Below are positions 6,927-46,900 of a stretch of 64,000 nt of DNA, piece by piece. This DNA comes from Marchantia polymorpha subsp. ruderalis (lineage: Eukaryota > Streptophyta > Marchantiopsida > Marchantiales > Marchantiaceae). How positions within the stretch are numbered: position 1 is the first letter of the stretch; each line of letters starts with the position of its first letter. Made by a program: the position numbers and the translations under genes. The stretch spans positions 14,082,001 through 14,146,000 of the forward strand of contig AP031358.1 in NCBI GenBank assembly GCA_037833965.1, given 5' to 3'. The notes below the pieces were generated by a model. The model did not search any database. It was not told where the DNA came from and saw only the letters and a program-made list of their open reading frames with translations.

Positions 6927-6930
6927 TGTG

Positions 6931-7223
6931 TGTCATGTAGTTACGAGTCGACTCACGAAGTTCAGACACTTACTATATTTAGCCGTAAAGTTAGGGTTCC
7001 GGTCACGGGGGGTATACAGTCGGGGACGGCTCGAAGAACGTCAGTTCTTCGAGTCGAGCCTGGAAGCGTTGGGAGCGTAGAGTGACTTTCCCCTTTGCGT
7101 CGACCTGGATTCTCCGAGTGTGGAGTGGGTTGGGCTTGACTCATGTTTGTGACGGTGACGGTTTGTTGCCAGTAGGGTAATTGACCGACGGGAATTCCAG
7201 TGGGGAATCTCCCGTCTATTTCA
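6931..7223 (+). repeat. 5' terminal partial LTR (293 bp: end of U3, R, U5)
   Basis: It is the same as 17324-17616 with no length difference. It starts TGTCATG and ends CTATTTCA. Compared with the full LTR at 17206-17616, the first 118 bp are missing. A TATA-like TATACA (7013-7018) lies 30 bp upstream of a predicted RNA start at about 7043. A perfect 10-bp inverted repeat (7030-7039 and 7044-7053) spans that start. Core promoter and U5 are present, so this end could still drive transcription. Confidence 0.93.
7013..7018 (+). promoter_or_regulatory. Putative TATA box of the retrotransposon
   Basis: TATACA lies about 30 bp upstream of the AGTTCTTCGAGT sequence (7043-7054) that would begin the RNA under the self-priming model. 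The same motif recurs in the 3' LTR at 17406-17411. No start site has been measured. Confidence 0.5.
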
Positions 7224-7234
7224 CTCGAAGAACT
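7223..7234 (+). promoter_or_regulatory. Putative self-priming primer-binding site
   Basis: ACTCGAAGAACT at the LTR/leader junction is the exact reverse complement of 7043-7054 in the LTR, which is the predicted 5' end of the RNA. Known family behaviour: in Tf1/sushi-type Ty3 elements the first 11 or so nt of the mRNA fold back on a site next to the 5' LTR, are cleaved and prime minus-strand synthesis. No plant initiator-tRNA site (TGGTATCAGAGC type) follows the LTR. The role is inferred from position and complementarity. Confidence 0.55.
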
Positions 7235-10023
7235 CAACTATGGTGGTCGGGTAGTGCAAAATCCGATCTGCTGCTTTTGTGATTTGATTGGTGTATTGAA
7301 TTCGGAACCGAGTTGACGGGGAGGAATGTGCTCTCTTCGAAGTTGCGTGGGTTAAGCTTCGAGGCCGAGAGTAGCAGGAAGCGCCGGCTAGAAGGCCGTT
7401 AGACACCTCAGTCGTGATTTGCATTCATGGTCTGGTCTGTGGAAGTCGGGCGAGGTACGAGGGTCGGGATTCAAGTTTCAGAGGAGAAGAGGTACACAGT
7501 ATTTCATTGACATTTGCGCTCCTGTTTATCGATGTGTCAATGTGGAATCTGTGAAGAGATCTGAGCTCTCGCTGCTTCGGATTATTTCTATAGAGTCTTC
7601 TCTGTATGGGACTCGTCGAAAGCGCAGTGGGCGTTGCGCTGTACTTCTCACTTGTGCTCTGATTGAGATCGTTCGTGAAGAATTTGGCTGCACTGTTGTA
7701 CTTGAAAGAATTATGTGCGTACTGGAGTCAAGAAAGAAAGTGAGGTAGTTGGAGCGCACTGGTAGTGGCAATTCGACTTTCATTCAAGCGCTCTTTGGAT
7801 TGGTAAAGCCATCGTGAAAATGTATTCTTATTGGGGATGTAACGTTATCAACATGGATTCCTAATGTTATCGATTGGATTCCTTCACATTGGATTCCTAG
7901 GGTTATCAACTCAGACAGGGTTCCCGACCTTGATTCTAGTTATTTGGAGTAACACAGTTTGCCCGACAGATTCCTGTTGGATAAAAACTCTTTGTTCTCC
8001 AAATTATTGTACGAGTATATCGATTGAACTGGTGTAAACCACGAGTGATACCTGAGTTGAATTTCGTTTTGCTCAAATCAGAATTTATACAAATTTTGAT
8101 GAGGTTGACTCGGAGGAAGAGAAATCGATGGTAGAATAAGATTTTTATTTCTCTGAAATGGACTAATCGTGAGGATCGAAGTAAGAAATCAAAGGAGAAG
8201 TAAAATCTGTGAGGTTGGTGGTTGAGGTACAGAGTGGGCCGAGTGTCCACGGAGTGCGGGGTACTGCCGTGGATAGGCTTTGAACTCATATTCGCGAGGG
8301 AATTATGAAACCGCGAAGTTATACTCTAGATGGATAGAAGCAGTATGTGAACTCTGTGCAACGACGCGAAGCAGAATTGGGTTGAATTGATGTTTGTCAC
8401 AGAGAACATATGCACGATTTGATTTGACTAGATTTCACCGCGGTGGGCTTAGCTTTGTTCGAATCTTGAGAGAGCACGTTCTTCTCTCCAAATTTCATAT
8501 CTATATTCTGTCAAGTCAACATTGCTGCCGTCGGATTGGGTATTGCAAGGAAATGTTGGAAAAATCAAGCTATTCAGTAGCTCAAGGCCTTACCACTTAA
8601 GGACTGTCAGCTCTGCTACTGGTTATCAGCCATGTAATTTTCCATCATTCAGTAACGGGCTTTATGACTTAGTAGTAGAAGTAGTAGTTATACATGCATT
8701 CTAGTTATGCAGAAACTGCTCCATGAATCTTGTAACCAACCTAGTTGGATGGGTTGGACTGTGCTCAATCCAATGACTCAGGATTGATAGTGGGGTAACG
8801 AGTGACAGTTGTTTTAATCTCTTAGTGGATCTTCATAGAGCAGCTGACCGGCCTCAAAATCTTTCGGAATAGCCTCGTCACGACTGCAAGTTATTTAGTC
8901 GGCCAGTTATCTAGTCTTTTACAGACCGTGGGGTGAGTTATTTATCAATAGATATTCTAGTAGTAATCGGCTAGGAAGAAGAAAAGAAGAAAAAAAAAAG
9001 AAAAAAGAAAAGAAAATATATATATATATATATATATCTGAAAGGATTGAGAACTTGCACTCAATCCTACCTACATGAGTTTTCAAATGTAAATACATGT
9101 ACTCTTATACGTATGAGGTGATCAACATTATATTACATGTTTTAGTACTTAGTGTATGTGTTTGGTGAAGTAGCGGAAGCATATATTCTAGACGTGTCTC
9201 TTTGCTTATGATGAACGATTAGAGTAAGTAACGGTTTTAGATTCCTTGCCCTAGTGGAAGGGGAGGTGTGAGTTGCTGTATGAGACAGCTTGGCGAAGAT
9301 ATCTTCTTTATGACAAGACGAAGGAGATAGCGTTTGGGGGCGTGACAAAAGCAGACACGGAGCATGACAAGTGGGTGAACTTCCGCGCTACATGTGCATT
9401 TGCAGACGGAAGGTGATAGAGTGCGATGGAGATCGAATCGGGATCGCGAAGCGATGCGATGTCCCGTGTGTGTTGTCTTGTTTTGTGTTGTGTTTCCTTT
9501 AGACTGGAGAGTCGTTGCTAGCTGTTTGCTTGTGTTTGGATCCTCTCCAGTCTTGCTTCCTGGTGCGCGCCCGTGTAGGGGTGACGCTGATTTCCGGAGT
9601 AGTTTTACTCCTGTGTGCTGGCGATAGGGGGCTGGACTTGATCACCGGCCGGTCTATCTATGTTTCTCTCACGGTGAGACTGGAGTGATGACCAGTAGAC
9701 CGTGAGAGTCTTCTTGCTGTGATGACAGGTTAGGTTGCCCATACCCCTTAGCTAGTAGGGCTAGAGTAACTCAGTGCGGCACGACGTCAGGGGCGGATTG
9801 GGTTATTGGGTGGAGATCTGGCAGTGGTGCCAGTTGAGGTTTCGTCATCACGGAGCAGTCTAGTGGTCCTGTTGAGGACCGCGCTGGATTTACGCGGAGC
9901 GGGTTGAGGTATCGGCTACCTTCACCTATTTTGCCAGTTGTTGCGGAGCACGACCAGAGTGTTGCAGACACAGAGTCTTTGGTGGTGATATCGTCTAGTG
10001 TTCCCACCCCATTGATTTGGGAC
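7235..10023 (+). other. Long retrotransposon leader without a recognisable gene
   Basis: About 2.8 kb separates the LTR from the first in-frame gag ATG. It holds many upstream ATGs, a purine-rich stretch running into an (AT)n tract (about 8970-9037), and a short hairpin (CTGGCA-GTGG-TGCCAG, about 9818-9833). The gag frame is open back to 9838, after a TGA at 9835, but has no ATG before 10024. A spliced leader or internal ribosome entry would each explain how ribosomes reach gag; neither is shown by the sequence. Confidence 0.6.
9016..9037. repeat. (AT)n microsatellite
   Basis: An alternating TA run follows a purine-rich A/G tract in the retrotransposon leader. It is probably length-variable between copies. 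Confidence 0.85.
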
Positions 10024-13000
10024 ATGGACGGGATGTACGGGGCCGCGAAGGGCCCTCGACGTTACTCTGGTGCAGTGGGCACCATCGAGCTTGATGATTT
10101 TATTCAGGAGTTCGACACGTGGTGTGATATGCAGTTTCTGCGTAACCCCACGTTGTTTACACCCTTCTTTGCATGGAAGGGATTATTCCAGCATTTGGAG
10201 GGGCCTCCCATGGACGATTATCATGAGTTTGGGAGAGAGTATGCTGTAGAGATTGATGCATGGAGACGGCATTGGTCTCCGAACTACTCATCCATTACCC
10301 AGGGTGGTGTGGGTACCAGTGGAGCTGCGAGTATCGGCATCAGTGGAGGTGCGAGTAGTAGCATTAGCGAGGGTACTAGTGGAGCAGTTGGCGCAACTGG
10401 TACTAGTACCAGCAGCGGTACTGTTAGCATTGCCGGTGGCAGCACGAGGGGAGATGCTGGTGGCGTACCTTCGTTTAGCCCCATTCCTGAGTTCTTCCAG
10501 AGATTGAGGAAGAATTATCAAGGGGTGAAAACGGAGAAGTTGAGGAGCCTCCAGGAGTTTGAGCGGAAGACTGGTGAGAGTCTTCGTGAGGCATACACTC
10601 GTATGCGACGGCTCATCTCAGTTACTCACGGTGTGACTGAGGCACAGGCTGTCCAGTACTGGTATCGGATCCTTGACAGAGAGTTGCGGAGGAGAGTGCG
10701 TGATGCTACTCTCATGAGCGACTCATCACCCACATTAGCCCATGTGTTTGCTCTTTCTGAGAAGATTGAGCTTAACATGGTGGAGGAGAGGGTGGTGACG
10801 TCTACATTTGCGAGGGACACGACCACTACCTCGCGTATCCCACATAGCTCAGCACAGTCTCGCCCCATCAGTGGGAGTCGTGGAGGTCATACACGACATC
10901 CTTCAGGTCACAGAGAGCCTAGTGCGCGGCCACCACTGCCTTCATTTTCGGGTCAGCCTCAGGGACCGTCATGTTGGACATGCGGAGGTAGCCATATGAG
11001 GAAGGATTGTCCCCAGGAGCGAGAGGGACAAACTCCACATGCTAGGCCACAGCCGGCACAGGTGACCTGTGATCATTGTCATCGACCGGGTCACCCTCGA
11101 GAGCGTTGCTTTGACCTTCATCCTGAGTTGAGATCTGGAGGTAGAGGTCGTGGAGGTGATGCTCCGCGAGGCCGAGGTGGTCGAGGTGGTAGAGGTGGTA
11201 GAGGTACCGGGGCCATTGAGCGTACCGCAGCGAGTGCTACTTCTGCCACAGAGAGCGCTATGGCTGCTCGGATTGAGCAGTTGGAGCAGAGGCTTGCTGC
11301 TATGGCCGATCTGGGGGCGAGCACTTCCACATCTTACGAAGGAGAGGATTTCTCCTATTTGGCCAGTGCAGCACAGGTTGAGGCATCAGTTGCAGTAACC
11401 AGAGGTGGTGCTCGCACTTCAGAGCCACGTGGTGCGACTGTGGAGTTGGACCCTCAGAGGGGTGAGGGTGGACGTCAGTCTAGACTTCCCCAGTCCTTTT
11501 TGTTGTCAGAGGTGGGTAGCAGTTCATCTATGAGACCTGCACCGCCTACTGACACTAGAGTGAGAACTGAGGTTCTTACATCATCTGTTGTGGGCGCAGA
11601 CGTGCCATCTAGTGCAGTGATGCGGATGGCCACTTCAGTCTTGCGATCTCCATTGTTCTCAGCCACGGAGTTGATAGACTCTGGTATTGATTTGGCTCGA
11701 GTATTTCGGGTAGCAGCCACGTCGTGTGAGCGTGGGATAATCGCTGCTACTAGTGCCGAGATAAGTGAGGATACAGTTGAGGACCCATCCTCAACGTCTA
11801 CATTGTTCGAGGAGACGACTTGGCAGGCCGCAGCGGCGAGGATGGAGTCCTTACCAGCTCGCCCAGCCATTGATCGCGAGAGTATTGTCCCTGGTGTATG
11901 TATGGTGGACAATCGAAGTGGTCTATTTCGGTTAGTGAGTTCTACTAGACAGGTGTATGTCCCAGCCAGAGTTTTGTTGGATTCTGGTGCACAGCCCTTG
12001 ATGTTGGGCAAGGCTGCATGCATTAGTTTGGGCATTCGGAGGTCCGAGTTGGAACCTTGCCCATTCCAGATCCAGACATCCCTTGGTGGTGCCAGCAATA
12101 GGTCTTACTTTATGACCAGGGAGAGCATAGCGGTGCAGTTGAGGCATGATCACCCTCATGATAGCTCGCAGTTTGGAGTTCGTGCTGTGGTTACATCAGC
12201 AGAGTCATATGATGTGCTTGTTGGTGGAGTGGTGTTATACCCGATGGGCTTCCGGATGGACTATTGGACGGAGACTGCCGCATATCGTCCTGGTTGGCAG
12301 TCCGGAGATGGACGTTTGAGCGAGCTGCCAGTGAGATTTATTTCTCGGGATCGACCTCTTGAATCTTCGTCAGCGGTCTTGGCATCTGTAGCAGGTTTTA
12401 GCGGAGTGCTTACCTGGTCCGGTGAGTTGTTGGCGGGGAACATGTCTGCCGACGATACCTCACTCTACGAGGATGTGGAGGAGGTTGTGAGTTTCACAGC
12501 GGCGGTGACTTCATCCTTAGATGTTCCACTGTGGAGTTCGTGCCAGGCACTACAGTTGGAAGCTGATAGGTTGGTAAAAAAGGCTTGGAGTGAAGCCTCG
12601 TTACCAGCAGAGCCAGAGAGGGCTTCAGATGATCGGCTAGTTGGTGGTTCTAGCGCATTGTCTCCATTGGTTACTACACCTATTGCATGGGAGTATTCCT
12701 CAGAGGGCGTTTGTTTGCTGGATCTTTTTGGTGGGATCAGCACCGGTTTGGCTGCGGTGTTGCAGTCAGGTATTCCCGTACGGAGATACTTATATGTGGA
12801 GAAAGACGAGACTGCACGTCGAGTCTCTTCACGACATGTTGCACAGTTGATGCGGCGTTTTCCTTCATTGTTGCCGCGATCAGCTGTCCGAGGATTCCAG
12901 AAGGCGTTGCCTTCAGACATTTCGTTGCTGGGGGCGCCAGACCTTGACCGCGTTGGCCATATTGATATGGTGATTGCGGGCTGGCCATGTCAGGGACACA

Positions 13001-13905
13001 CACGCGCTGGACATGGGACAGGGTTGCATGATCCCAGATCTCGGATGTTTTGGGAGATGATGCGAGTGTTATGTCATCTCCAAGTGCAGCAGACACGTTC
13101 TCCAGCATACATTCTGGAGAACGTACCATTGTTGGGTGACACTCGGGCCCAGTTGATGGCGAGTGTCCATCAAGTCCGAGCATGGATTGGATCAGCAGTA
13201 CTGTTGGATGCTGCGAGGGTTGGATCACGAGCGCATCGTGCACGTTTGTGGTGGACCAACCTTTTGCCACGTGAGATATTGCGTCATGCCTATGATTCGG
13301 TGAAGCGTGATACTACACTCACCGTTGACAGTATCTTGGATGTTTCCCGGCACTCTCAAGTAGTGAGAGTTGCTGACAGGTCACCTATGGCATTGGTGAA
13401 CCGCGTAGGTCAGCCTCGGATGGCTTTACCTACATTTGTCAGTTATCCGGCATCACATGCATATCGTGATGGGGGACCTGGACTACTATGGGACAGTACC
13501 CTACATCAGTTGGTGGAGCCCAACGCTGATGAGAGAGAGCGTGCGATGGGGTTTCTTACTGGTGTGACCGCGGCTTCTTCAATTTCAGAGGCGTCGCGTC
13601 GTCAGGTTTTGGGTCAGGCTATGGACCTGAACTGCTTGACGTGGATTGTGAGCTTGGGTTTGGCCGAGCAACGCCGTTTGCGCGCAGATTTGGTGGTTGT
13701 AACACCACTTATTAGCTCATGGCCTACCGGGACGGTAGTAGCAATGGCTGGGGGCGACAGGCGAGATATTTGTCATCCTTGGAGTTTATGGGACGTGACG
13801 AAAGGACTTGCCAGAGTTGCAGCCCATGCAGTTGGAGAGGATTCTCACGTGGAGGTGGCTACGAAGAAGGGTACGGAGAACCCTTCTTTGCAGTGTGTAG
13901 CGTAG
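10024..13905 (+). CDS. Gag-protease-DNA methyltransferase polyprotein (1293 aa)
   Basis: This block encodes the particle protein, the maturation protease and a cytosine-5 DNA methyltransferase. The start is the first in-frame ATG; the frame is open upstream but lacks ATG. Residues 1-90 and about 155-265 look like Gag capsid, split by a Ser/Gly/Thr-rich linker (about 91-147). Two zinc knuckles follow, Cx2Cx3Hx4C (317-329) and Cx2Cx4Hx4C (349-362), then an RGG box (about 372-395) and a short coiled coil (about 414-428). The aspartic protease motif LLDSGA has its Asp at 653. The methyltransferase occupies about 893-1233 (see its own entry). The frame ends at UAG (13903-13905), and the next block continues in the same frame, implying readthrough. 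The methyltransferase is therefore made in Gag amounts unless the protease trims it. No break is visible. Confidence 0.93.
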   Translation: MDGMYGAAKGPRRYSGAVGTIELDDFIQEFDTWCDMQFLRNPTLFTPFFAWKGLFQHLEGPPMDDYHEFGREYAVEIDAWRRHWSPNYSSITQGGVGTSGAASIGISGGASSSISEGTSGAVGATGTSTSSGTVSIAGGSTRGDAGGVPSFSPIPEFFQRLRKNYQGVKTEKLRSLQEFERKTGESLREAYTRMRRLISVTHGVTEAQAVQYWYRILDRELRRRVRDATLMSDSSPTLAHVFALSEKIELNMVEERVVTSTFARDTTTTSRIPHSSAQSRPISGSRGGHTRHPSGHREPSARPPLPSFSGQPQGPSCWTCGGSHMRKDCPQEREGQTPHARPQPAQVTCDHCHRPGHPRERCFDLHPELRSGGRGRGGDAPRGRGGRGGRGGRGTGAIERTAASATSATESAMAARIEQLEQRLAAMADLGASTSTSYEGEDFSYLASAAQVEASVAVTRGGARTSEPRGATVELDPQRGEGGRQSRLPQSFLLSEVGSSSSMRPAPPTDTRVRTEVLTSSVVGADVPSSAVMRMATSVLRSPLFSATELIDSGIDLARVFRVAATSCERGIIAATSAEISEDTVEDPSSTSTLFEETTWQAAAARMESLPARPAIDRESIVPGVCMVDNRSGLFRLVSSTRQVYVPARVLLDSGAQPLMLGKAACISLGIRRSELEPCPFQIQTSLGGASNRSYFMTRESIAVQLRHDHPHDSSQFGVRAVVTSAESYDVLVGGVVLYPMGFRMDYWTETAAYRPGWQSGDGRLSELPVRFISRDRPLESSSAVLASVAGFSGVLTWSGELLAGNMSADDTSLYEDVEEVVSFTAAVTSSLDVPLWSSCQALQLEADRLVKKAWSEASLPAEPERASDDRLVGGSSALSPLVTTPIAWEYSSEGVCLLDLFGGISTGLAAVLQSGIPVRRYLYVEKDETARRVSSRHVAQLMRRFPSLLPRSAVRGFQKALPSDISLLGAPDLDRVGHIDMVIAGWPCQGHTRAGHGTGLHDPRSRMFWEMMRVLCHLQVQQTRSPAYILENVPLLGDTRAQLMASVHQVRAWIGSAVLLDAARVGSRAHRARLWWTNLLPREILRHAYDSVKRDTTLTVDSILDVSRHSQVVRVADRSPMALVNRVGQPRMALPTFVSYPASHAYRDGGPGLLWDSTLHQLVEPNADERERAMGFLTGVTAASSISEASRRQVLGQAMDLNCLTWIVSLGLAEQRRLRADLVVVTPLISSWPTGTVVAMAGGDRRDICHPWSLWDVTKGLARVAAHAVGEDSHVEVATKKGTENPSLQCVA
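12670..13735 (+). other. DNMT3-like cytosine-5 DNA methyltransferase domain within the Gag polyprotein
   Basis: All key motifs of a C5 methyltransferase appear in order. Motif I is LLDLFGGISTGL (SAM binding), followed by an acidic motif II (YVEKDE). Motif IV is GWPCQG with the catalytic Cys at residue 989 (codon 12988-12990). Motif VI is ENV (1032-1034). Motif VIII is AHRAR (Args 1072 and 1074). Motif IX/X is ERERAMGF followed by VLGQAMDLNCL. The AHRARxxW-x-NL block and the GIxTGLxxL...GIxVxRY spacing resemble animal/plant DNMT3 more than DNMT1/MET1 or chromomethylases. No PWWP, UBA or chromodomain adjoins it; the polyprotein supplies a protease before it and, by readthrough, RT after it. Retrotransposon-borne C5 methyltransferases are known from dinoflagellates and the charophyte Klebsormidium (from memory, de Mendoza and colleagues 2018). 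All catalytic residues are intact, so activity is plausible but untested. Confidence 0.92.
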
Positions 13906-13911
13906 CAACCA
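13903..13911 (+). promoter_or_regulatory. Type I stop-codon readthrough signal (UAG CAA CCA)
   Basis: The only stop between the two coding blocks is TAG, followed directly by CAA CCA in the same frame. This fits UAG-CAR-YYA, the motif that drives leaky termination in tobamoviruses (UAG CAA UUA in TMV). Readthrough, rather than frameshifting or a separate start, would fuse RT-RNase H-integrase-PHD to Gag-protease-DNMT. The first ATG of the downstream block is not until 13942, so reinitiation is the less likely alternative. Confidence 0.8.
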
Positions 13912-16900
13912 TTGACAGTGTCGCCTCCCTCTAGTGTGCCTATGGAGGAGGAGTGGGAGCCATTGATTGGTTCCCAGATCACAGGAGGAGAGAGGCGACG
14001 ATTGACACAATTCCTACGAGACTATAGGAGTTGTTTTGCTTTCAGTATGAAGGAGTTGGGTGCGTTGATTGGACCCGGTATACGGATAGAATTGGCTAGT
14101 GATACGCCAATCTTCCGTCGTCCTTATCGATACAGTGAGATGGAGAGAGATTTGATTCGGAGTAGGACGTTGGACCTACTGGAGGCTGGACTAGTGGAGT
14201 TATCGCATGGTGAGTATGCGTCAGCCACTGTCATGCCGGTGAAGAAGGATGTACATGGCAACTACACGGATAGGCGCATGTGTGGAGACTACCGTCCTAT
14301 CAATCGGCAGACGAAGTCCGATAAGTATGCCATGCCTACACCTGAGGAGATCTTCGATGTGGTGGGACATGCGAGGATTTTTAGTACTTTGAATCTTCGG
14401 GCAGGATACCATCAGTTGCCAATTCGGGAGGAGGACAAAACCAAGACAGCGTTTTGGGGCGTCAACTCCCACGGCAAGGATTGTTTGTATCAGTGGCGAT
14501 TCTTACCCTTTGGGTTGAAGAATGCACCTGCCGAGTTTCAGAGGGTTATGGACAGAATCCTGGCGGGGCTGGATTTTGTCAGATGTTACATTGATGATAT
14601 CTTGGTGTTTAGTGACACTGTGGAGCAACACCAGATACACTTGCAGATTGTGTTTGAGCGATTGAGGGCTCATGGTTTGAGGTTACATCCTGGGAAGTGT
14701 AAGTTCTTCCAGGAGAAGGTTGAGTACTTGGGTCATGTGATATACCCAGGTGGTTTAGGAGTTCAGCAAGCAAAGGTGGAGGCTATTGCACGCATCCCTC
14801 GTCCCACGGATGTGAGTAGAGTTCGTGCATTTATGGGTTTAGCGAACTACTATCGGAGGTATGTGAAGGGGTTCAGTGCTATAGCCAAGCCTTTGAACCA
14901 GTTGCTGAAGTCAGATCAGGAGTGGCAATGGGGAGATGAGCAGGAGAGAGCTTTTGTTGAGCTCAAGGCCAGGTTGGTGGCCGCTCCCATCTTGAGGAGA
15001 CCTATCAGAGGTCGTCCATACCAATTGCACACTGATTGGAGTATGTTGGGACTTGGAGCGGTGTTGACGCAGCGTGATGATGAGGGCAAGGAGTTTGTGG
15101 TTGCGTACGCTAGTCGTTCGAACAATGCAGCGGAGTCGCGGTATAGTTCGTACGAGGGAGAGTGCTTGGCAGCGGTGTGGGCTGTGGCGCACTTCAGGTG
15201 TTACTTGTTTGGTACGCAGTTCACCCTTGTTACTGATCATCAACCGCTCAAGTGGTTGATGGAGTCCGACAAGCTTACAGGGAAGCTTGCACGGTGGGCT
15301 CTCATCTTACAGGAGTACGACTTTCAGGTGGTGCATAGACCTGGAGTTGCGAACCTAGATGCCGATGGTTTGAGTCGAAACCCATGCACTAGCCAGGAGG
15401 ATGACACTGGAGCTAGATGGCATGGTGAGGTTGACGAGGAGATGGTGCCTGGTTGGCATGCATCTGCCTTCATGTGTTGGTTACGTGGGAACTCCAGCAC
15501 AGAGGATCATCTGACATCTTACTCTAGTCAGAGAGTAGATGGTCGATCTCCAGATCCTGAGGTTGAGGATGGTGGTGTGGATCAGCGTGATGTACACGAT
15601 GATGCATTGGTGTTGGAGTTCCTACGGACCAGCATGGTGCCAGGCACAGTGGGTGCCAAGGAGCAAGATCGTGTTCTCCAACGGGCCAAGAGGTACCGAT
15701 TGGAGGGATCACATGTTCTCCGAGTATGGGAGGACGGTAGGGTACGAGTAGTACCACATCCAGCCCAGAGAGCACGCATTGTGAGGCATGCTCATGAGGA
15801 GTTGGGACATTTTGGAGTGAAGCGTACATACAGCTTACTCCTTGGTCAGTATTGGTGGCGTGGTATGCATACTCAGGTACAGCAGTTGGTATCACGTTGC
15901 ATGGTTTGTGATCGAGTGAGGGCATCATTCAATGCCCCGACACCAGTGTTACATCCATTACCCATCATGGGGTTGGGTTACCGTTGGAGTTTGGACTTTG
16001 CTGGACCACTACCTTTGACTGTACGACATCATCGATATGTGTTGGTGATGGTGGAGCATTTCTCCAAGTGGATTGAGTTGGTGGCATTACCTGACAAGGC
16101 AAGTGAGGGAGTAGCGTATGCTTTTCTTGACAGAGTGCTTAGTCACTATGGTGCACCAGCTGAGGTGTTGACCGATCAGGGAACGGAGTTTCAGGGTGAG
16201 TTTCAGGTCTTGTGCGACAAGGCACTGATTGATCATCGGACCACGTCGCGAGATCATCCAGAGGCGGATGGTTTAGCTGAACGTGTTGTACAGACGGTGA
16301 AGAGGGCGTTGCGCAAGTATGGCCTGCAGAAAGGTCATCTTGGGGACTGGGATATCCAGTTACCGTGGTTGGCCATGGGATATCGGTTCAGTCGGCAGGC
16401 ATCCTTGGCTTCCTTCTCACCATATTTTCTATTGTACGGCCGAGATCCAGACTTGCCAACATCGATTCGTCGTGAGTCTAGCGAGGTGGTGAACCTTGAT
16501 GACCCGAATATGTGGGTGAGAGTATGTTCTCAACGTGCAGAGCTCTTTCGAAGAGTTATGCCTGCAGCGTTTGAGAATCTTGCGATTGCTCAACATAGAG
16601 ATACGTTGCGGTATGCAACCATTCGGGGAGGAGGTTATCGACCATCAATTCGTAGATTCCATGTGGGAGACTACGTCTATCTACAACAGACTGCACCGAC
16701 GACATTGGATGTGACGGCGGGACGCACCATCTTGCGGGTGCGGGAGGTGTTACCTTCTGGAGTTCTCCTGTTGGAGGGTCGTGACGGCGTTGTTTGGAAG
16801 GATCATGTGCGCAATTGTGCGCCATGCCACCTCCCAAACGTAGATGGCACTATGGACCCAAGCTTAGCAGTAGTACGTGCTGGCTTGAGGTGCATGCTGT

Positions 16901-17034
16901 GTGGGTCAGCTGGTAAGGCGGCCCGTATGTTGGTGTGTGATAGGTGTTCTAGGGGATGGCACATGTCGTGCCTAACTCCGCCTATCGATGTTATTCCGGC
17001 TGGACGATGGGTTTGTCCTCGATGTACTTCATAG
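13906..17034 (+). CDS. Pol block: reverse transcriptase-RNase H-integrase-PHD finger (readthrough product)
   Basis: This block copies element RNA into DNA and inserts it. It is in the same frame as gag and would be made by UAG readthrough. RT spans about 14080-14830 with YIDD intact (14587-14598), but motif A reads LNLRAGYHQ, placing Asn (codon 14392-14394) where the catalytic Asp is expected. RNase H spans about 15010-15395, with the expected acidic residues in HTDWS, YEGE, VTDH and NLDADGLS. The integrase has an HHCC zinc domain (about 15785-15915), catalytic Asp in SLDFAGPL, Asp in LTDQGTEF and Glu in GLAE (spacing 34), then an SH3-like region (about 16660-16850). Instead of a chromodomain it ends in a PHD finger (16885-17031). 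The stop is TAG at 17032. The order RT-RNase H-integrase is Ty3/Gypsy. Confidence 0.93.
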   Translation, partial: QPLTVSPPSSVPMEEEWEPLIGSQITGGERRRLTQFLRDYRSCFAFSMKELGALIGPGIRIELASDTPIFRRPYRYSEMERDLIRSRTLDLLEAGLVELSHGEYASATVMPVKKDVHGNYTDRRMCGDYRPINRQTKSDKYAMPTPEEIFDVVGHARIFSTLNLRAGYHQLPIREEDKTKTAFWGVNSHGKDCLYQWRFLPFGLKNAPAEFQRVMDRILAGLDFVRCYIDDILVFSDTVEQHQIHLQIVFERLRAHGLRLHPGKCKFFQEKVEYLGHVIYPGGLGVQQAKVEAIARIPRPTDVSRVRAFMGLANYYRRYVKGFSAIAKPLNQLLKSDQEWQWGDEQERAFVELKARLVAAPILRRPIRGRPYQLHTDWSMLGLGAVLTQRDDEGKEFVVAYASRSNNAAESRYSSYEGECLAAVWAVAHFRCYLFGTQFTLVTDHQPLKWLMESDKLTGKLARWALILQEYDFQVVHRPGVANLDADGLSRNPCTSQEDDTGARWHGEVDEEMVPGWHASAFMCWLRGNSSTEDHLTSYSSQRVDGRSPDPEVEDGGVDQRDVHDDALVLEFLRTSMVPGTVGAKEQDRVLQRAKRYRLEGSHVLRVWEDGRVRVVPHPAQRARIVRHAHEELGHFGVKRTYSLLLGQYWWRGMHTQVQQLVSRCMVCDRVRASFNAPTPVLHPLPIMGLGYRWSLDFAGPLPLTVRHHRYVLVMVEHFSKWIELVALPDKASEGVAYAFLDRVLSHYGAPAEVLTDQGTEFQGEFQVLCDKALIDHRTTSRDHPEADGLAERVVQTVKRALRKYGLQKGHLGDWDIQLPWLAMGYRFSRQASLASFSPYFLLYGRDPDLPTSIRRESSEVVNLDDPNMWVRVCSQRAELFRRVMPAAFENLAIAQHRDTLRYATIRGGGYRPSIRRFHVGDYVYLQQTAPTTLDVTAGRTILRVREVLPSGVLLLEGRDGVVWKDHVRNCAPCHLPNVDGTMDPSLAVVRAGLRCMLCGSAGKAARMLVCDRCSRGWHMSCLTPPIDVIPAGRWVCPRCTS
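16885..17031 (+). other. C-terminal PHD finger of the integrase
   Basis: The last 49 residues show the full C4-H-C3 zinc pattern: CMLC, CDRC, Hx2C and CPRC, with the conserved Trp before the last pair. The CDxCxxGxHxxCLxPP...PxGxWxCPxC layout resembles plant PHDs of the ATXR5/6 type, which bind the histone H3 tail unmodified at K4. A reader here would occupy the place taken by the chromodomain in chromoviruses and could steer integration. Ligand specificity is inference. Confidence 0.88.
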
Positions 17035-17193
17035 GGGTAGATGACTTGATCTTCACATGTTATGAATTGCAGATAGGCGACTAACGATGGGGCGACATAG
17101 CACCCGGCCTACTGGTTCGCGCACCCACGAAGGTGTATAGCATGTAGTTGTAGATGGGGCTACCTGGGAGTCAGAGGGACCTGACCGCCAGCT
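17035..17193 (+). other. Retrotransposon 3' untranslated segment
   Basis: A short spacer lies between the pol stop and the polypurine tract. No open frame or structure stands out. Confidence 0.6.
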
Positions 17194-17204
17194 AGGGGGG
17201 CGAG
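17194..17204 (+). promoter_or_regulatory. Polypurine tract
   Basis: AGGGGGGCGAG (one C interrupts the purines) lies 1 bp before TGTGACA at 17206. This is the expected place for the plus-strand primer and is the main reason for placing the true LTR start at 17206 rather than at 17324. Confidence 0.7.
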
Positions 17205-17205
17205 T

Positions 17206-17616
17206 TGTGACATTTGAGTGTGTACTCTCTCGCGCCTTATATGTGTGTATGTGTGTGCGTATGTGTATGTGAGTAGCATGTCAGCGATGTGGAGTGTATG
17301 GCGATATGTATTCGCACGACAGCTGTCATGTAGTTACGAGTCGACTCACGAAGTTCAGACACTTACTATATTTAGCCGTAAAGTTAGGGTTCCGGTCACG
17401 GGGGGTATACAGTCGGGGACGGCTCGAAGAACGTCAGTTCTTCGAGTCGAGCCTGGAAGCGTTGGGAGCGTAGAGTGACTTTCCCCTTTGCGTCGACCTG
17501 GATTCTCCGAGTGTGGAGTGGGTTGGGCTTGACTCATGTTTGTGACGGTGACGGTTTGTTGCCAGTAGGGTAATTGACCGACGGGAATTCCAGTGGGGAA
17601 TCTCCCGTCTATTTCA
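17206..17616 (+). repeat. Full 3' LTR (411 bp)
   Basis: The LTR begins TGTGACA right after the polypurine tract and ends CTATTTCA. Its first 116 bp (17206-17321) recur at 17619-17734 and its last 293 bp (17324-17616) recur at 6931-7223, both apparently without a mismatch. A TG-rich stretch (about 17240-17275) and the 10-bp palindrome GACAGCTGTC (17318-17327) lie in U3. The palindrome is exactly where the two partial copies are cut. Confidence 0.88.
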
Positions 17617-17734
17617 GTTGTGACATTTGAGTGTGTACTCTCTCGCGCCTTATATGTGTGTATGTGTGTGCGTATGTGTATGTGAGTAGCATGTCAGCGA
17701 TGTGGAGTGTATGGCGATATGTATTCGCACGACA
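17617..17734 (+). repeat. Partial LTR joined tail-to-head to the full LTR (GT spacer plus 116 bp)
   Basis: After the LTR end CTATTTCA come GT and then a fresh LTR start TGTGACA, running to GACA, where host DNA begins. The GT equals the two bases that precede the LTR next to the polypurine tract, so the joint looks like a two-LTR circle junction. Together with 6931-7223 it makes one complete LTR less the GC at the centre of the palindrome. Confidence 0.85.
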
Positions 17735-17738
17735 TGTG

Positions 17739-42879: not shown

Positions 42880-43178
42880 GACGATGAATCTCACACTGCA
42901 CCGGTCGAGTCTAGTCTGTACAGATACTTGTTCCAGATTCTAAACCCAGAATATATTCCTTTATGCAATAATTCTTAATATTTTGATTGCATGTGGTTTG
43001 CATCCGGTTCTATCGTCTAGCGGTTATGACGATGAATCTCACACTGCACCGGTCGAGTCTAGTCTGTACAGAAACGTGTTCCAGATTTTAAACGCAGAAT
43101 TCATTCCTTTTTGTACTAGTTGTTATTATCTTGATTGCAAGTGGTGTGCATCCGGTTCCATGGTCTAGCGGTTATGAC
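42880..43178. repeat. 148-bp tandem duplication ending inside the tRNA gene
   Basis: Copy 1 (42880-43027) and copy 2 (43028-about 43178) both run from GACGATGAATCTC to the 5' part of tRNA-Gln. The copies are clearly diverged, so the event is not recent. Confidence 0.85.
43006..43030 (+). pseudogene. Truncated tRNA-Gln fragment
   Basis: GGTTCTATCGTCTAGCGGTT plus five bases matches the 5' arm and D-arm of the intact tRNA 148 bp downstream, with two differences. It then breaks into unrelated duplicated DNA, with no anticodon arm. Confidence 0.8.
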
Positions 43179-43225
43179 ACTGGACTCTGAATCCAGTAGC
43201 CCGAGTTCAATTCTCGGTGGAACCT
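43154..43225 (+). tRNA. tRNA-Gln (CUG)
   Basis: This 72-nt cloverleaf has acceptor stem GGTTCCA pairing with TGGAACC, a D-arm with TCTAGCGGTTATGA, and anticodon stem CTGGA/TCCAG around loop CTCTGAA, giving anticodon CUG. The T-arm CCGAG-TTCAATT-CTCGG is perfect. CCA is not encoded, as expected in eukaryotes, and a T-run for Pol III termination follows directly (43225-43231). It has no intron. Confidence 0.96.
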
Positions 43226-43239: not shown

Positions 43240-46200
43240 TGACTGGATTCGGGGCGGAACCTGTTTTGCCTGTTTTGCCTCTCATTGACTGGATTCGTGG
43301 CGGAAACTGTTTTGACTGTTTTGCCTGTCATTGATTGGATTCGGGGCGAAAACGTGCTGATAATCCTTGATGTCTTTAGAAAAATTAAGCAGTTTGTTTT
43401 GGACTAAACCCGTTGGATTTGGACAAATTGCAGGTTACAAAATTGAAGAAAATACATTAAACGGGCTACAAAGCAATCTGGTCTAAACGATCTTCAACTT
43501 GGAAATATTAAAAGTACAACATTGCGCATCCTCTCGCTCATCAAATTAGAGCTACTGCGGTTCTCCCACGATTCGCGAACAGAGAGATGCCCACTCCAAT
43601 CAAGTAGTGATCGAGAGAAACCGGCAAGTTGAAGAAAAATTCATACCTGTATCTCTAGCCGAAGAGTATTGATTTGGCTATCTTCACCAATAATGGTCCA
43701 TCGCCTGACACAGGTTCTATTGAGCAAGCATGTATTCTCCGACCCCAGTAATCATCACGGATTACACTCCGTTCTCTCTGAGCGTGGTTGGCAAGAGACT
43801 GAAAGTCACGCACTCAACATTTCAGAAGACACAGAGGAATATGGTGGAGTTGTGGTGAATATATGAACACCATTCTGTAATCTCACCCACCAGATGTTCG
43901 ATCTTATATTTTGAAACTTCGAGAGGTTTTCCAGTAGCGGGGAAATCCGGATTGTACTGACATCGGACGAGGCATAAGACCCTCCTGGTCTGTAGATGAC
44001 GTCGACTCTGCCACCTTCCCGTTTCTCCATGCTCCCTGGCATTTCCACTCATACATCTATAAAAGACGGTATCTCATTTGATGTTCCTTTGCGTGACATT
44101 TGTGATGAGTCCCAACCATTGAACCCCTGTCCAGCCGAAGAGTATTTTCTCTATATGGAGATCGAGAGAAAATTTGAGAAGCAAGACACTTCAAAATTTA
44201 AAGCTTCGAATATCCCAGAATCTACAACTTCGCAAACTGGTTTGGTCCAAATCCAAGTGCTGAATTTTGGAAAGCCATCACTTCAACTTGCGAAGATTAT
44301 CAACCGTTTTCGCCCCAAACTAGCCAATGAGAAGCAAGACACTTCAAATAAATCAACTTTTTGAAGACTCCCAAACATTTGTTACGAGGCTCCCGCGTGA
44401 TTGTAAACTGCTTATCTGCTGATGTCACGCAAAAATGCTTCTCTCAAATGATCTGCGTTTTCGACAAACGGGAAATGACCTCCAACCGAGACATGAGTGA
44501 GAACGACGACTATTGCACTTCAGAGTTGGGTGGGCAGAAACTAGCCCAGACACCTCTCAAAATCACTGCTCTTTTGCGTCCACTTAAAATCAGAGCCTTC
44601 GCTTTATTGCCTGCGAAAACTTCAAGGTTGAAAGCCTCAACGAACGATCGTATACAATTTGGAATTCAGATTTGGATTGAATGTTCAAGCCGAGCTCCAA
44701 GCTGTTGCTGTGGTCTTCTCGGCTTGGCAAATTTCATGTGGTCTCTCTCATTCTCCGAGCAGTTCCCGAATGTCTTGCTGGGATTTGGATTTTCGTACTG
44801 CTTGACATGATTGAATGGACTTGAGAATATTGGGTACGTCGCCATCGACCATGACTCACGATTAGGCAGTACGAGCAGCCTCTAGATCCGTCTGACTCTG
44901 CGGTCAGATTTAGAGTCTCAAACTAGATACTTCACAGAACCTTATAACGTATAACAGCGTTTGGAGATGTGGGTGTCAATGATGGTTCAACTCATGTCAC
45001 GTGTCAATGACGAGGTTCAACTCAAAATCATTGAGCGTGATCTCTACGCGCAGGACTTTCAGTCTCTAACCAACGACGCTCAAATCCACCACGTTCACAG
45101 ACAACGGAGTGTAATCCGTGATGATTAATGGGGTCGGAGAATACATGCCTGCCCAATAGATCAATTAATAGAATGAGAAGGTTACGATTACTATAGCCAG
45201 GCGAGTTGCTGGTGACACAACAACGACCTGTTGTGCGTTCTTCTCAGATTATGTTTATTTGTAGCTCGAAGCTCATAGTTTGGTTGTTGATGAAGAATCT
45301 TCATTGCTGCAACCATCTGACACTTACTACATGCACCACGCGGTTTGACACTCACATCTCCAAACACTGTTACATTATATACGTCTATTATGATACTCTA
45401 AATTTGACCGCAGAGGCAAACGGATTTAGAGGCTGCTCGTACCGCCTGGTCGTGAGCCCTGGCCGATGGCGATGTACCCAGTATTCTCAGATCCATTCAA
45501 TCATGTCAAGCAGTACAAAAACTCAGATCTCAGGACATTTGGGAACTGCTAGGAGAAGGAGAGAGACCACATGGAGTTTGCCGAGGAACTGCCGAGGAAC
45601 GAGAGACCACAAGAACACCTTGGATCTCGGCTTGGACATTCGATCCAAATCCGAATCCCAAAGTCAATGGTGCTAACTGCCCACGATTGTTGAGTATTTC
45701 AAGCTTCAATAAAGCGTAGGCTCAGATTTCAGTCCGCGTAATTGGAGCGGTAAGAGCAGTGATTTGATGAGATGTTTTGGCTAGTTTCTGCCCACCCACC
45801 ACGCGTTTGACACCCACATCTTCAAACACTGCTACGTTATAACCTTCTGTGAAGTATCTAGTTCGAGACTCTAAATTTAACCGCAAAGGCAGACAAATCT
45901 AGAGGTTGCTCGTACCGGCTAATCGTGAGCCCTGGCCGATGGCGATATACCAAGTATTCTCAAGTTCATTCAATTCGTTCAAGCAGTACGAAAACTCAAA
46001 TTCCATGACATTTGGGAATTGTTGGGAGAAGGAGAGAGACCACATGGAGTTTGCCGAGCCCAGAAGATCACAACAACAGCTTGAATCTCGGTTTGAGCAT
46101 TTGATCCAAATATGAATCCCAACGTCAACGGTGCAAACTGCATACAATCGTTTGTTGAGGCTTTCAAGCTTGAAGTTTCCGCAGGCAATAAAGCGCAGGC

Positions 46201-46900
46201 TTTGGTTTCAGTCCGCGTAAGTGCAAGCGAAAGAGCACTGATTTGGTGAGGTGCATGGGCTAGTTTCTGCCCATCCAACTCTGAAGTGCAGTAGTCGTTG
46301 TTCTCACTCATGTCTTGGTTGGAGGTTGTTTCTCGTTTGTCGAACATGCAGATCATCTGAAAAAAGCAATTCTGCGTGACATCAACAGATGAGCAGTTTA
46401 CAAGCACGCATGAGACTAGTATCAAATGTTTGAGAGTCTTCAAAAATTTGATTCCTTTGAGTTGTCTTGCTTCTCATTGGTTGGTTTGGGGTTGAAAACT
46501 GCTGATAATACTCGCAAGTTGAAGTGATGGCTTTCCAAAATTCAACAGTTGGATTTGGACCAAATCCGTTGGCAAAGCTGTAGATTCTGGGATATTCGAA
46601 GTTTGAAATTTTTAAGTGTCTTGCTTCTCATTGGCCGGTTTGGGGCGGAAATCTATTGATAATACTCGCAAGTTGAAGTGATGACTTTCCAAAATTCAAC
46701 AGTTGGATTTGAACCAAACCCGTTGGTAAAGTGGTAGATTCTGGGATATTTGACGTTTGAAATTTTGAAGTGTCTTGCTTCTCATTGGTTGGTTTGGTGC
46801 GAAATCCTGTTGATAATCCTCGCAAGTTGAAGCGTTGGCATTTCAAAATTTTAACACTTGTATATAGAATAAACCAGTTTGCAAACGGGTTTAGGCCATG
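43240..46900. repeat. Complex inverted and direct repeat island
   Basis: 43716-43830 is the imperfect reverse complement of about 45049-45165. 44341-44880 is the imperfect reverse complement of about 45906-46450, and parts of it also of 45340-45760. The right side is thus two tandem diverged copies of one unit. The frames at 44361-44810 (+) and 45979-46443 (-) encode the same diverged peptide because they lie on opposite arms. No terminal repeats or transposase were found. Transcription would give hairpin RNA. Confidence 0.75.
46463..46900. repeat. About 154-bp tandem repeat, 3 copies
   Basis: TGTCTTGCTTCTCATTGG begins units at 46463, 46618 and 46771. Each continues through TTGAAGTGATGG or similar and a TTCAACAGTTGGATTTG-like stretch; the third is more diverged. 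Confidence 0.85.

Follow-up and report, generated by a model that had tools for sequence, protein, structure and literature searches.

A DNMT3-type cytosine methyltransferase in a Ty3/Gypsy-class retrotransposon family of Marchantia polymorpha with split terminal repeats

Cytosine methylation is a main host mark that silences retrotransposons. A retrotransposon of Marchantia polymorpha subsp. ruderalis, located in a stretch of 64,000 nucleotides (contig AP031358.1, positions 14,082,001 to 14,146,000 of the forward strand; in the following, the window), encodes a C5-cytosine methyltransferase (MTase) of its own. This raises the question of whether the domain is a chance passenger or a lasting part of the element, and what it would do there. 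An earlier note had described the element as a long terminal repeat (LTR) retrotransposon with a complete DNMT3-like MTase fused to Gag-protease. As judged from its sequence and those of its relatives, it is a recently inserted Ty3/Gypsy-class retrotransposon with a DDE integrase, from a family in which the DNMT3-type MTase is a lasting part.

The methyltransferase domain and its element

The MTase region (12670-13735) matched the Pfam profile DNA_methylase (E 2.5e-9), and its top PDB matches were DNMT3A (E 1.2e-9). It has the C5-MTase fold and the motifs of a DNMT3 catalytic domain, namely I, IV (PC), VI (ENV), VIII (RxR), IX, and X, in the classical order I-IV-VI-VIII-IX-X; the permuted order that is the hallmark of DRM enzymes was not encountered. 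The motifs read DLFGGISTGL, EKDE, AGWPCQGH, ILENVP, GSRAHRARLWWTN, ADERERAMGF, and VLGQAMDL. The catalytic cysteine codon (12988-12990) is residue 1029 when counted from 9904, or 989 from the ATG at 10024, the number given in the earlier note. Pfam, PDB, and motif evidence agree with that note on a complete DNMT3-like MTase in one frame with Gag, CCHC, and protease, ahead of a UAG.

The predicted MTase structure (pLDDT 91) had DNMT3A/B as its best fold match (DNMT3A, TM 0.64/0.81), so that DNMT3A/B ranked first by profile as well as by fold. The top matches in a viral fold library were phage and giant-virus C5-MTases with a TM of at most 0.58/0.55; as these values lie below that of DNMT3A, a viral origin of the MTase is not favoured. 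A search of IMG/VR returned four stretches that fit a pattern, none of which encoded a relative.

The coding part of the element is organised as follows:

10024..13905, forward strand: open reading frame 1 (ORF1), Gag - CCHC - aspartic protease - MTase, terminating at UAG; frame open from 9904
11974..12348, forward strand: aspartic protease region; weak RVP_2 match (E 0.22), recurring in relatives; ratio of nonsynonymous to synonymous substitution rates (dN/dS) 0.155
12670..13735, forward strand: DNMT3-type C5-cytosine MTase domain with the catalytic Cys codon at 12988-12990; Pfam, PDB, motif, and fold evidence
13903..13911, forward strand: UAG-CAA-CCA, readthrough-like stop context, the same in 30/30 copies, window included
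13912..17034, forward strand: ORF2, reverse transcriptase (RT) - RNaseH (RH) - integrase (H2C2, rve) - PHD finger, by Pfam
16891..17025, forward strand: PHD finger at the Pol C-terminus (PF00628, E 8e-11)

ORF1 is open from 9904 (first ATG at 10024) to the UAG at 13903-13905, and ORF2 runs on in that frame as far as 17034. Pfam matches of ORF1 to Gag (0.022) and protease (0.22) were weak and under the cut-off, while ORF2 matched RT, RNaseH, integrase H2C2, rve, and a PHD finger. The latter, which resembles structures of CHD4, MLL3, KDM5, and DPF3 in a PDB search, had been overlooked in the earlier note, whose account of Gag-protease-MTase before UAG and RT otherwise stands. Chromoviruses carry a chromatin-reader module at the integrase C-terminus, too; there it is a chromodomain, whereas Pol of the window element ends in a PHD finger.

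With regard to class, the order protease-RT-RH-integrase, the rve integrase, and the target duplication are those of Ty3/Gypsy elements. Two identical LTRs reaching the target duplication were not found; the ends are instead parts B and A of a split repeat. Split direct repeats are known from TOC1/PAT-type elements, of which PAT uses a tyrosine recombinase. The window element shares the split direct repeats with the DIRS/PAT group, but has an rve integrase and a 4-bp duplication rather than a tyrosine recombinase without duplication. The designation as an LTR retrotransposon is thus adequate as to type (Ty3/Gypsy-like), but not as to the terminal repeats, which are no ordinary LTRs.

Copies, selection, and relatives

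In the genome (241 Mb, 9 contigs), 95 of 765 candidates were scored and all matched, giving at least 95 copies of the MTase domain. The matched stretch was free of stops in 57/95 copies and contained stops in 38/95. Further comparisons used the window and the 29 best-scoring copies, which are not a random sample. In this set, the MTase core was stop-free in 25/30 copies and each of the seven motifs was exact in 26-30.

The dN/dS of the MTase was 0.273 (0.163-0.461), similar to that of RT-RNaseH (0.245, 0.152-0.407); the protease gave 0.155 (0.073-0.341) and a 207-nt tail 0.384 (0.143-1.014). MTase variants present in more than one copy comprised 15 nonsynonymous and 22 synonymous changes, compared to 48:19 plus five stops for singletons (p 0.003), and the protease behaved similarly (6:12 shared, 17:7 singleton, p 0.028). 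The contrast in the MTase suggests that inherited changes were filtered and that changes after insertion were nearly free; by this measure, selection has kept the MTase intact. The earlier note had named stops in, or loss of, the domain in other copies and a dN/dS near 1 as outcomes that would speak against it. At the family level the domain is kept, despite the 38 copies with stops, and its dN/dS is below 1.

A neutral passenger, captured once in the window copy or its subfamily, would fit those 38 copies and the nearly neutral look of the singleton variants. Selection among the inherited variants contradicts this explanation, as does the finding of the domain in further bryophytes, in algae, and in metagenomes; it is scarcely tenable and, at the level of the family, refuted.

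Transitions per site at C/G positions amounted to 0.16 in CG, 0.18 in CHG, and 0.10 in CHH contexts, compared to 0.026 at A/T. This excess of C-to-T and G-to-A changes is, by its pattern, the deamination footprint expected of methylated DNA.

Between them, three protein searches listed 268 distinct proteins. Among the 53 matches of the first were 15 proteins named M. polymorpha and one Sphagnum fallax, the others being unnamed or metagenomic. The second (113 matches) added Monoraphidium neglectum and Cymbomonas tetramitiformis by name, and the third (120 listed of 198) Calypogeia fissa, Sphagnum troendelagicum, Riccia sorocarpa, and Marchantia paleacea. No protein named Klebsormidium was among the matches listed. 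Two metagenome bins labelled bacterial (P0115, P0155) also contained such proteins and are probably misbinned. The distribution over liverworts, Sphagnum, two green algae, and metagenomes is wider than the earlier note stated.

Domain order was tallied for 148 proteins, taken from the first and second searches. RT-RH-MTase-integrase-PHD was present in 72, of which 40 had a further C-terminal domain, and RH-MTase-integrase, incomplete proteins included, in 92/148, a share biased by the second search having begun from a protein of this type. Gag-(CCHC)-protease-MTase was present in 26/148; three had the MTase before RT without Gag or protease, and the remainder were fragments or mixed. The earlier note had hinted that production at Gag level matters, but as those 92 relatives place the same enzyme in Pol between RNaseH and integrase, this hint is not supported. 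In relatives such as P0031, P0042, and P0051, an additional C-terminal domain with DPW...TND...PP motifs is frequent, perhaps a second, degenerate methyltransferase (weak matches for one slice, E 0.06 and 0.11).

In the MTase tree (52 rows), the RH-MTase-integrase type was set apart with a support of 92/74 and in 98% of 200 bootstrap trees (the bootstrap not having settled), and the bryophyte elements fell among the protease-MTase type. The tree has a single outgroup on a long branch, includes no plant DNMT3, and has two long branches meeting in the third type. MTase distances correlated with those of RT (rho 0.38) and integrase (rho 0.59) among 81 proteins, 78 of them of the RH-MTase-integrase type and the window the only protease-MTase one. 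We read this pattern as one old acquisition, after which the domain was relocated within the polyprotein; related elements may instead have captured similar MTases twice.

In a comparison with Sphagnum proteins (P0017, P0172), the window element is 87% identical to S. fallax over 138 aa around RT and 83% over 135 aa of the integrase. Its MTase is 74% identical to S. troendelagicum (269 aa) and 75% to M. paleacea (207 aa). As identity to Sphagnum is as high as to M. paleacea, horizontal transfer among bryophytes is possible.

Split ends, priming, and integration

The noncoding features of the element are:

6931..17734, forward strand: whole element, ends TGTC...GACA
6927..6930, no strand: 5' target-site duplication TGTG, identical 4 bases at 17735-17738
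17735..17738, no strand: 3' target-site duplication TGTG, matching 6927..6930
6931..7223, forward strand: 5' terminal repeat B, starting TGTC, 293/293 identity with 17324-17616; probably promoter and RNA start
7043..7053, forward strand: AGTTCTTCGAG, putative RNA 5' end and self-primer, complementary to 7224-7234, within the part of B still alignable in the second subfamily
7224..7234, forward strand: putative primer-binding site CTCGAAGAACT directly 3' of B, a conserved site after B in both families
7235..10023, forward strand: leader, its 5' part almost wholly different from copy to copy
17194..17205, forward strand: polypurine tract AGGGGGGCGAGT directly 5' of A; GGGGGGCGAGT in 10/10 listed family-1 and 4/4 family-2 copies
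17206..17321, forward strand: repeat A, first copy, 116/116 identity with 17619-17734
17318..17327, no strand: GACAGCTGTC, palindromic A|B junction holding both integration ends, from repeat comparison across copies
17324..17616, forward strand: repeat B, 3' copy, identical to 5' B
17619..17734, forward strand: repeat A, second copy, identical to the first; element terminates GACA

The ends are thus arranged as B-internal-A-B-A, with B of 293 nt and A of 116 nt. Twenty further copies were fetched, of which 16 had both ends scorable (n=17 with the window). An exact 4-bp duplication beside TGTC...GACA was present in 17/17. B-internal-A-B-A was found in the window, ten family-1, and four family-2 copies, and B-internal-A in two (L045/046 and L067/068). 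Copy L035/036 has an additional partial A-B unit; its 3' end reads A-B(partial)-A-B-A and looks as though one extra repeat unit had been attached. In L031/032, the first 31 nt of the second A are missing. In each of the four unscored copies, one or both ends were missing from the fetched piece; one of them (L043/044) runs from A-B directly into the primer site and a second leader match, a head-to-tail neighbour. Within each copy the two Bs and the two As are identical or nearly so, and the identity of both pairs in the window marks its insertion as young.

The polypurine tract immediately precedes A and the primer site immediately follows B, so that reverse transcription should give A-B...A-B. 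The integration ends, however, sit at the A|B junction GACAGCTGTC, apart from these predicted ends, and a circle or dimer is therefore a probable intermediate of insertion. Opening a two-LTR circle, or a dimer, at GACAGCTGTC would give exactly B-internal-A-B-A, and B-internal-A would result from a one-LTR circle or from later recombination between A repeats. Recent copies with A-B...A-B ends and target duplications numbered none among 21 copies inspected.

An ordinary LTR element with rearranged termini and no circular step would explain why A and B adjoin as a unit beside the polypurine tract and primer site, like a normal LTR. It is very improbable: two subfamilies with diverged B share the arrangement, exact target duplications flank the odd ends, and the closest published element, KnitGypsy-Dnmt3 of Klebsormidium nitens, has been described with a repeat structure "the same as that of a DIRS retrotransposon" (de Mendoza, 2018; PMC5890265).

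Priming looks self-primed. Within B, AGTTCTTCGAG is the complement of the 11 nt that follow B (CTCGAAGAACT), and this primer site does not start with TGG, unlike a tRNA site. Directly after B, TCGAAGAACT is present in 10/10 family-1 copies with both ends and TCGAAGAAC in 4/4 family-2 copies. The ten-base primer occurs together with its site in the window and 8/10 family-1 copies, the other two having the site only; a nine-base primer with its site is present in 4/4 family-2 copies. An RNA spanning 7042 to 7236 is predicted to fold with its ends paired (z -3.26).

In the leader (window 7235-8975 and the leaders of L031-L069, 0.8-2.9 kb each), only 5/105 pairs among 15 copies share any stretch (blastn, plus strand, E 1e-5), although family-1 coding regions are about 97% alike. 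As target duplications enclose them, the leaders are inside the insertion. A leader query (7246-9850) gave 44 matches from 40 of 393 candidates scored; upstream of about query base 1730 it matched the window copy, C7:15957346 (full), C5:26524133 (from base 482), and C8:22992071 (246 bases). Each match adjoins or runs into the leader part common to elements, and thus no separate host parent that would mark the leader as a captured host gene was among those listed.

At the end of ORF1, UAG is followed by CAACCA in 30/30 copies. This context fits the tobamovirus-type readthrough rule CAR-YYA.

Elsewhere in the window, a tRNA-Gln (CUG) gene was predicted at 43154-43225, and a cluster of direct and inverted repeats (units of 150-274 nt, 84-88% alike) lies at 44313-46763.

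Possible role of the enzyme and known systems

We propose that Pol would be produced by UAG readthrough, and that the RNA would begin at AGTTCTTCGAG and self-prime on the site after B. RT would then build an A-B...A-B molecule, and the integrase would open a circle or head-to-tail dimer at the A|B palindrome to yield B-internal-A-B-A, while the PHD finger may couple integration to chromatin. The MTase, in the particle or the nucleus, would methylate newly made DNA of the element, either ahead of integration or shortly afterwards; this DNA could then escape treatment as foreign unmethylated DNA, or insert already bearing a host-like mark. As the best explanation of the whole, comprising an MTase-bearing family, readthrough, self-priming, a circle or dimer, and own-DNA methylation, we give this account somewhat better than an even chance. 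For the mode of MTase action, which we infer from the observed sequence, conservation, and arrangement, methylation of the element's own DNA has about an even chance. A fuller proposal is tentative: in a green-lineage Gypsy family, an old, selected, and relocated DNMT3-type MTase would methylate circular or head-to-tail cDNA, which a DDE integrase would then open at an internal palindrome and insert.

Alternatively, the MTase could act on the host side by altering chromatin around targets, limiting the element itself, or countering host silencing. DNMT3-type enzymes are de novo methylators of chromatin, and the element also bears a PHD finger. Furthermore, the MTases listed for M. polymorpha are MET, two CMT, and two DRM, but no DNMT3 (Schmid, 2018; PMC5784723), so that the element's enzyme may be the only one. 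A freely acting enzyme made at Gag level would, however, be costly to the host, and we regard this alternative as rather unlikely. It is improbable that the domain persists because it binds nucleic acid inside the particle rather than for catalysis, or that it methylates RNA. Its production with Gag would suit such a function, but PCQ, ENV, and RxR are conserved in 26-29 of 30 window-family copies, and the Cys, EN, and both Arg residues are invariant in 25 aligned sequences.

Several observations weigh against the favoured account as a whole. When the Gypsy enzyme of Klebsormidium was tried in yeast, methylation was not detected, a result termed inconclusive by its authors (PMC5890265). The deamination footprint in CG, CHG, and CHH is silent on which enzyme methylates. 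Motif IV has Glu in place of Pro in 55/140 relatives, a point that also favours the binding or RNA function; the Cys is present in 138/140, with a gap in the other two. Shared and singleton RT variants (8:10 and 47:38) did not differ significantly (p 0.44). Co-inheritance rests almost only on RNaseH-MTase-integrase elements, for which alone (78 proteins) rho is 0.29 with RT and 0.57 with integrase. Finally, the two B-internal-A copies can also be explained by recombination between two A repeats.

Retroelement-borne C5 methyltransferases of dinoflagellates and Klebsormidium, to which the earlier note had referred, are indeed described (PMC5890265). KnitGypsy-Dnmt3 is Gypsy-type with an unpermuted Dnmt3 under purifying selection and DIRS-like repeats; its domain lies in the Pol ORF, whereas that of the window element follows the protease and precedes the UAG (PMC5890265). 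As KnitGypsy-Dnmt3 is the same kind of thing, the window element is not a new category. The Klebsormidium case was termed an independent acquisition (PMC5890265), but the wide family seen here, in a comparison that includes no Klebsormidium sequence, suggests an older shared one. SymbioDIRS-Dnmt3 of dinoflagellates is likewise retroelement-borne, with repeats A-coding-B-A-B, but has a tyrosine recombinase in contrast to the DDE integrase of the window element (PMC5890265). With reference to de Mendoza, PMC12344493 also places some DNMT3 members in "LTR Copia and DIRS" elements.

Self-priming has Ty3/Gypsy precedents in Tf1/Sushi (known) and Tcn1 (predicted), where a 5' RNA segment is likewise complementary to the primer site. 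The Tf1 self-primer is 11 nt long. Unlike the window element, Tf1/Sushi and Tcn1 have ordinary LTRs and are not known to carry an MTase.

The main text of PMC5890265 has no occurrence of "PHD" or "Marchantia". In a survey of plant LTR elements (PMC6317226), the text covered contains neither "methyltransferase" nor "PHD" nor "Marchantia", in line with the earlier remark that such methyltransferases are not standard in land-plant Ty3/Gypsy elements. No land-plant DNMT-bearing Gypsy element was found in the covered parts of open full texts, including PMC12344493, PMC6453930, PMC5784723, PMC9985172, PMC12477816, PMC10714607, and PMC6317226. As far as this literature shows, the novel features are the occurrence in a land plant, in a family of which many copies are intact; an MTase placed on the protease side, ahead of a stop with readthrough-like context; the PHD finger; split ends that are flanked by target duplications; and the self-primer.

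To our knowledge, 2-LTR circles are as a rule dead ends for DDE integrases, and the split ends with target duplications call this rule into question. What methylation does for the element becomes a question once a family is seen to retain, under selection, a DNMT3-type enzyme of its own. Since the MTases listed for M. polymorpha include no DNMT3 in the text covered (PMC5784723), element-made and host-made methylation could be separable in this plant. The reason why an element subject to silencing bears the tool of its silencer could thus be tested in Marchantia, a genetically tractable model plant.

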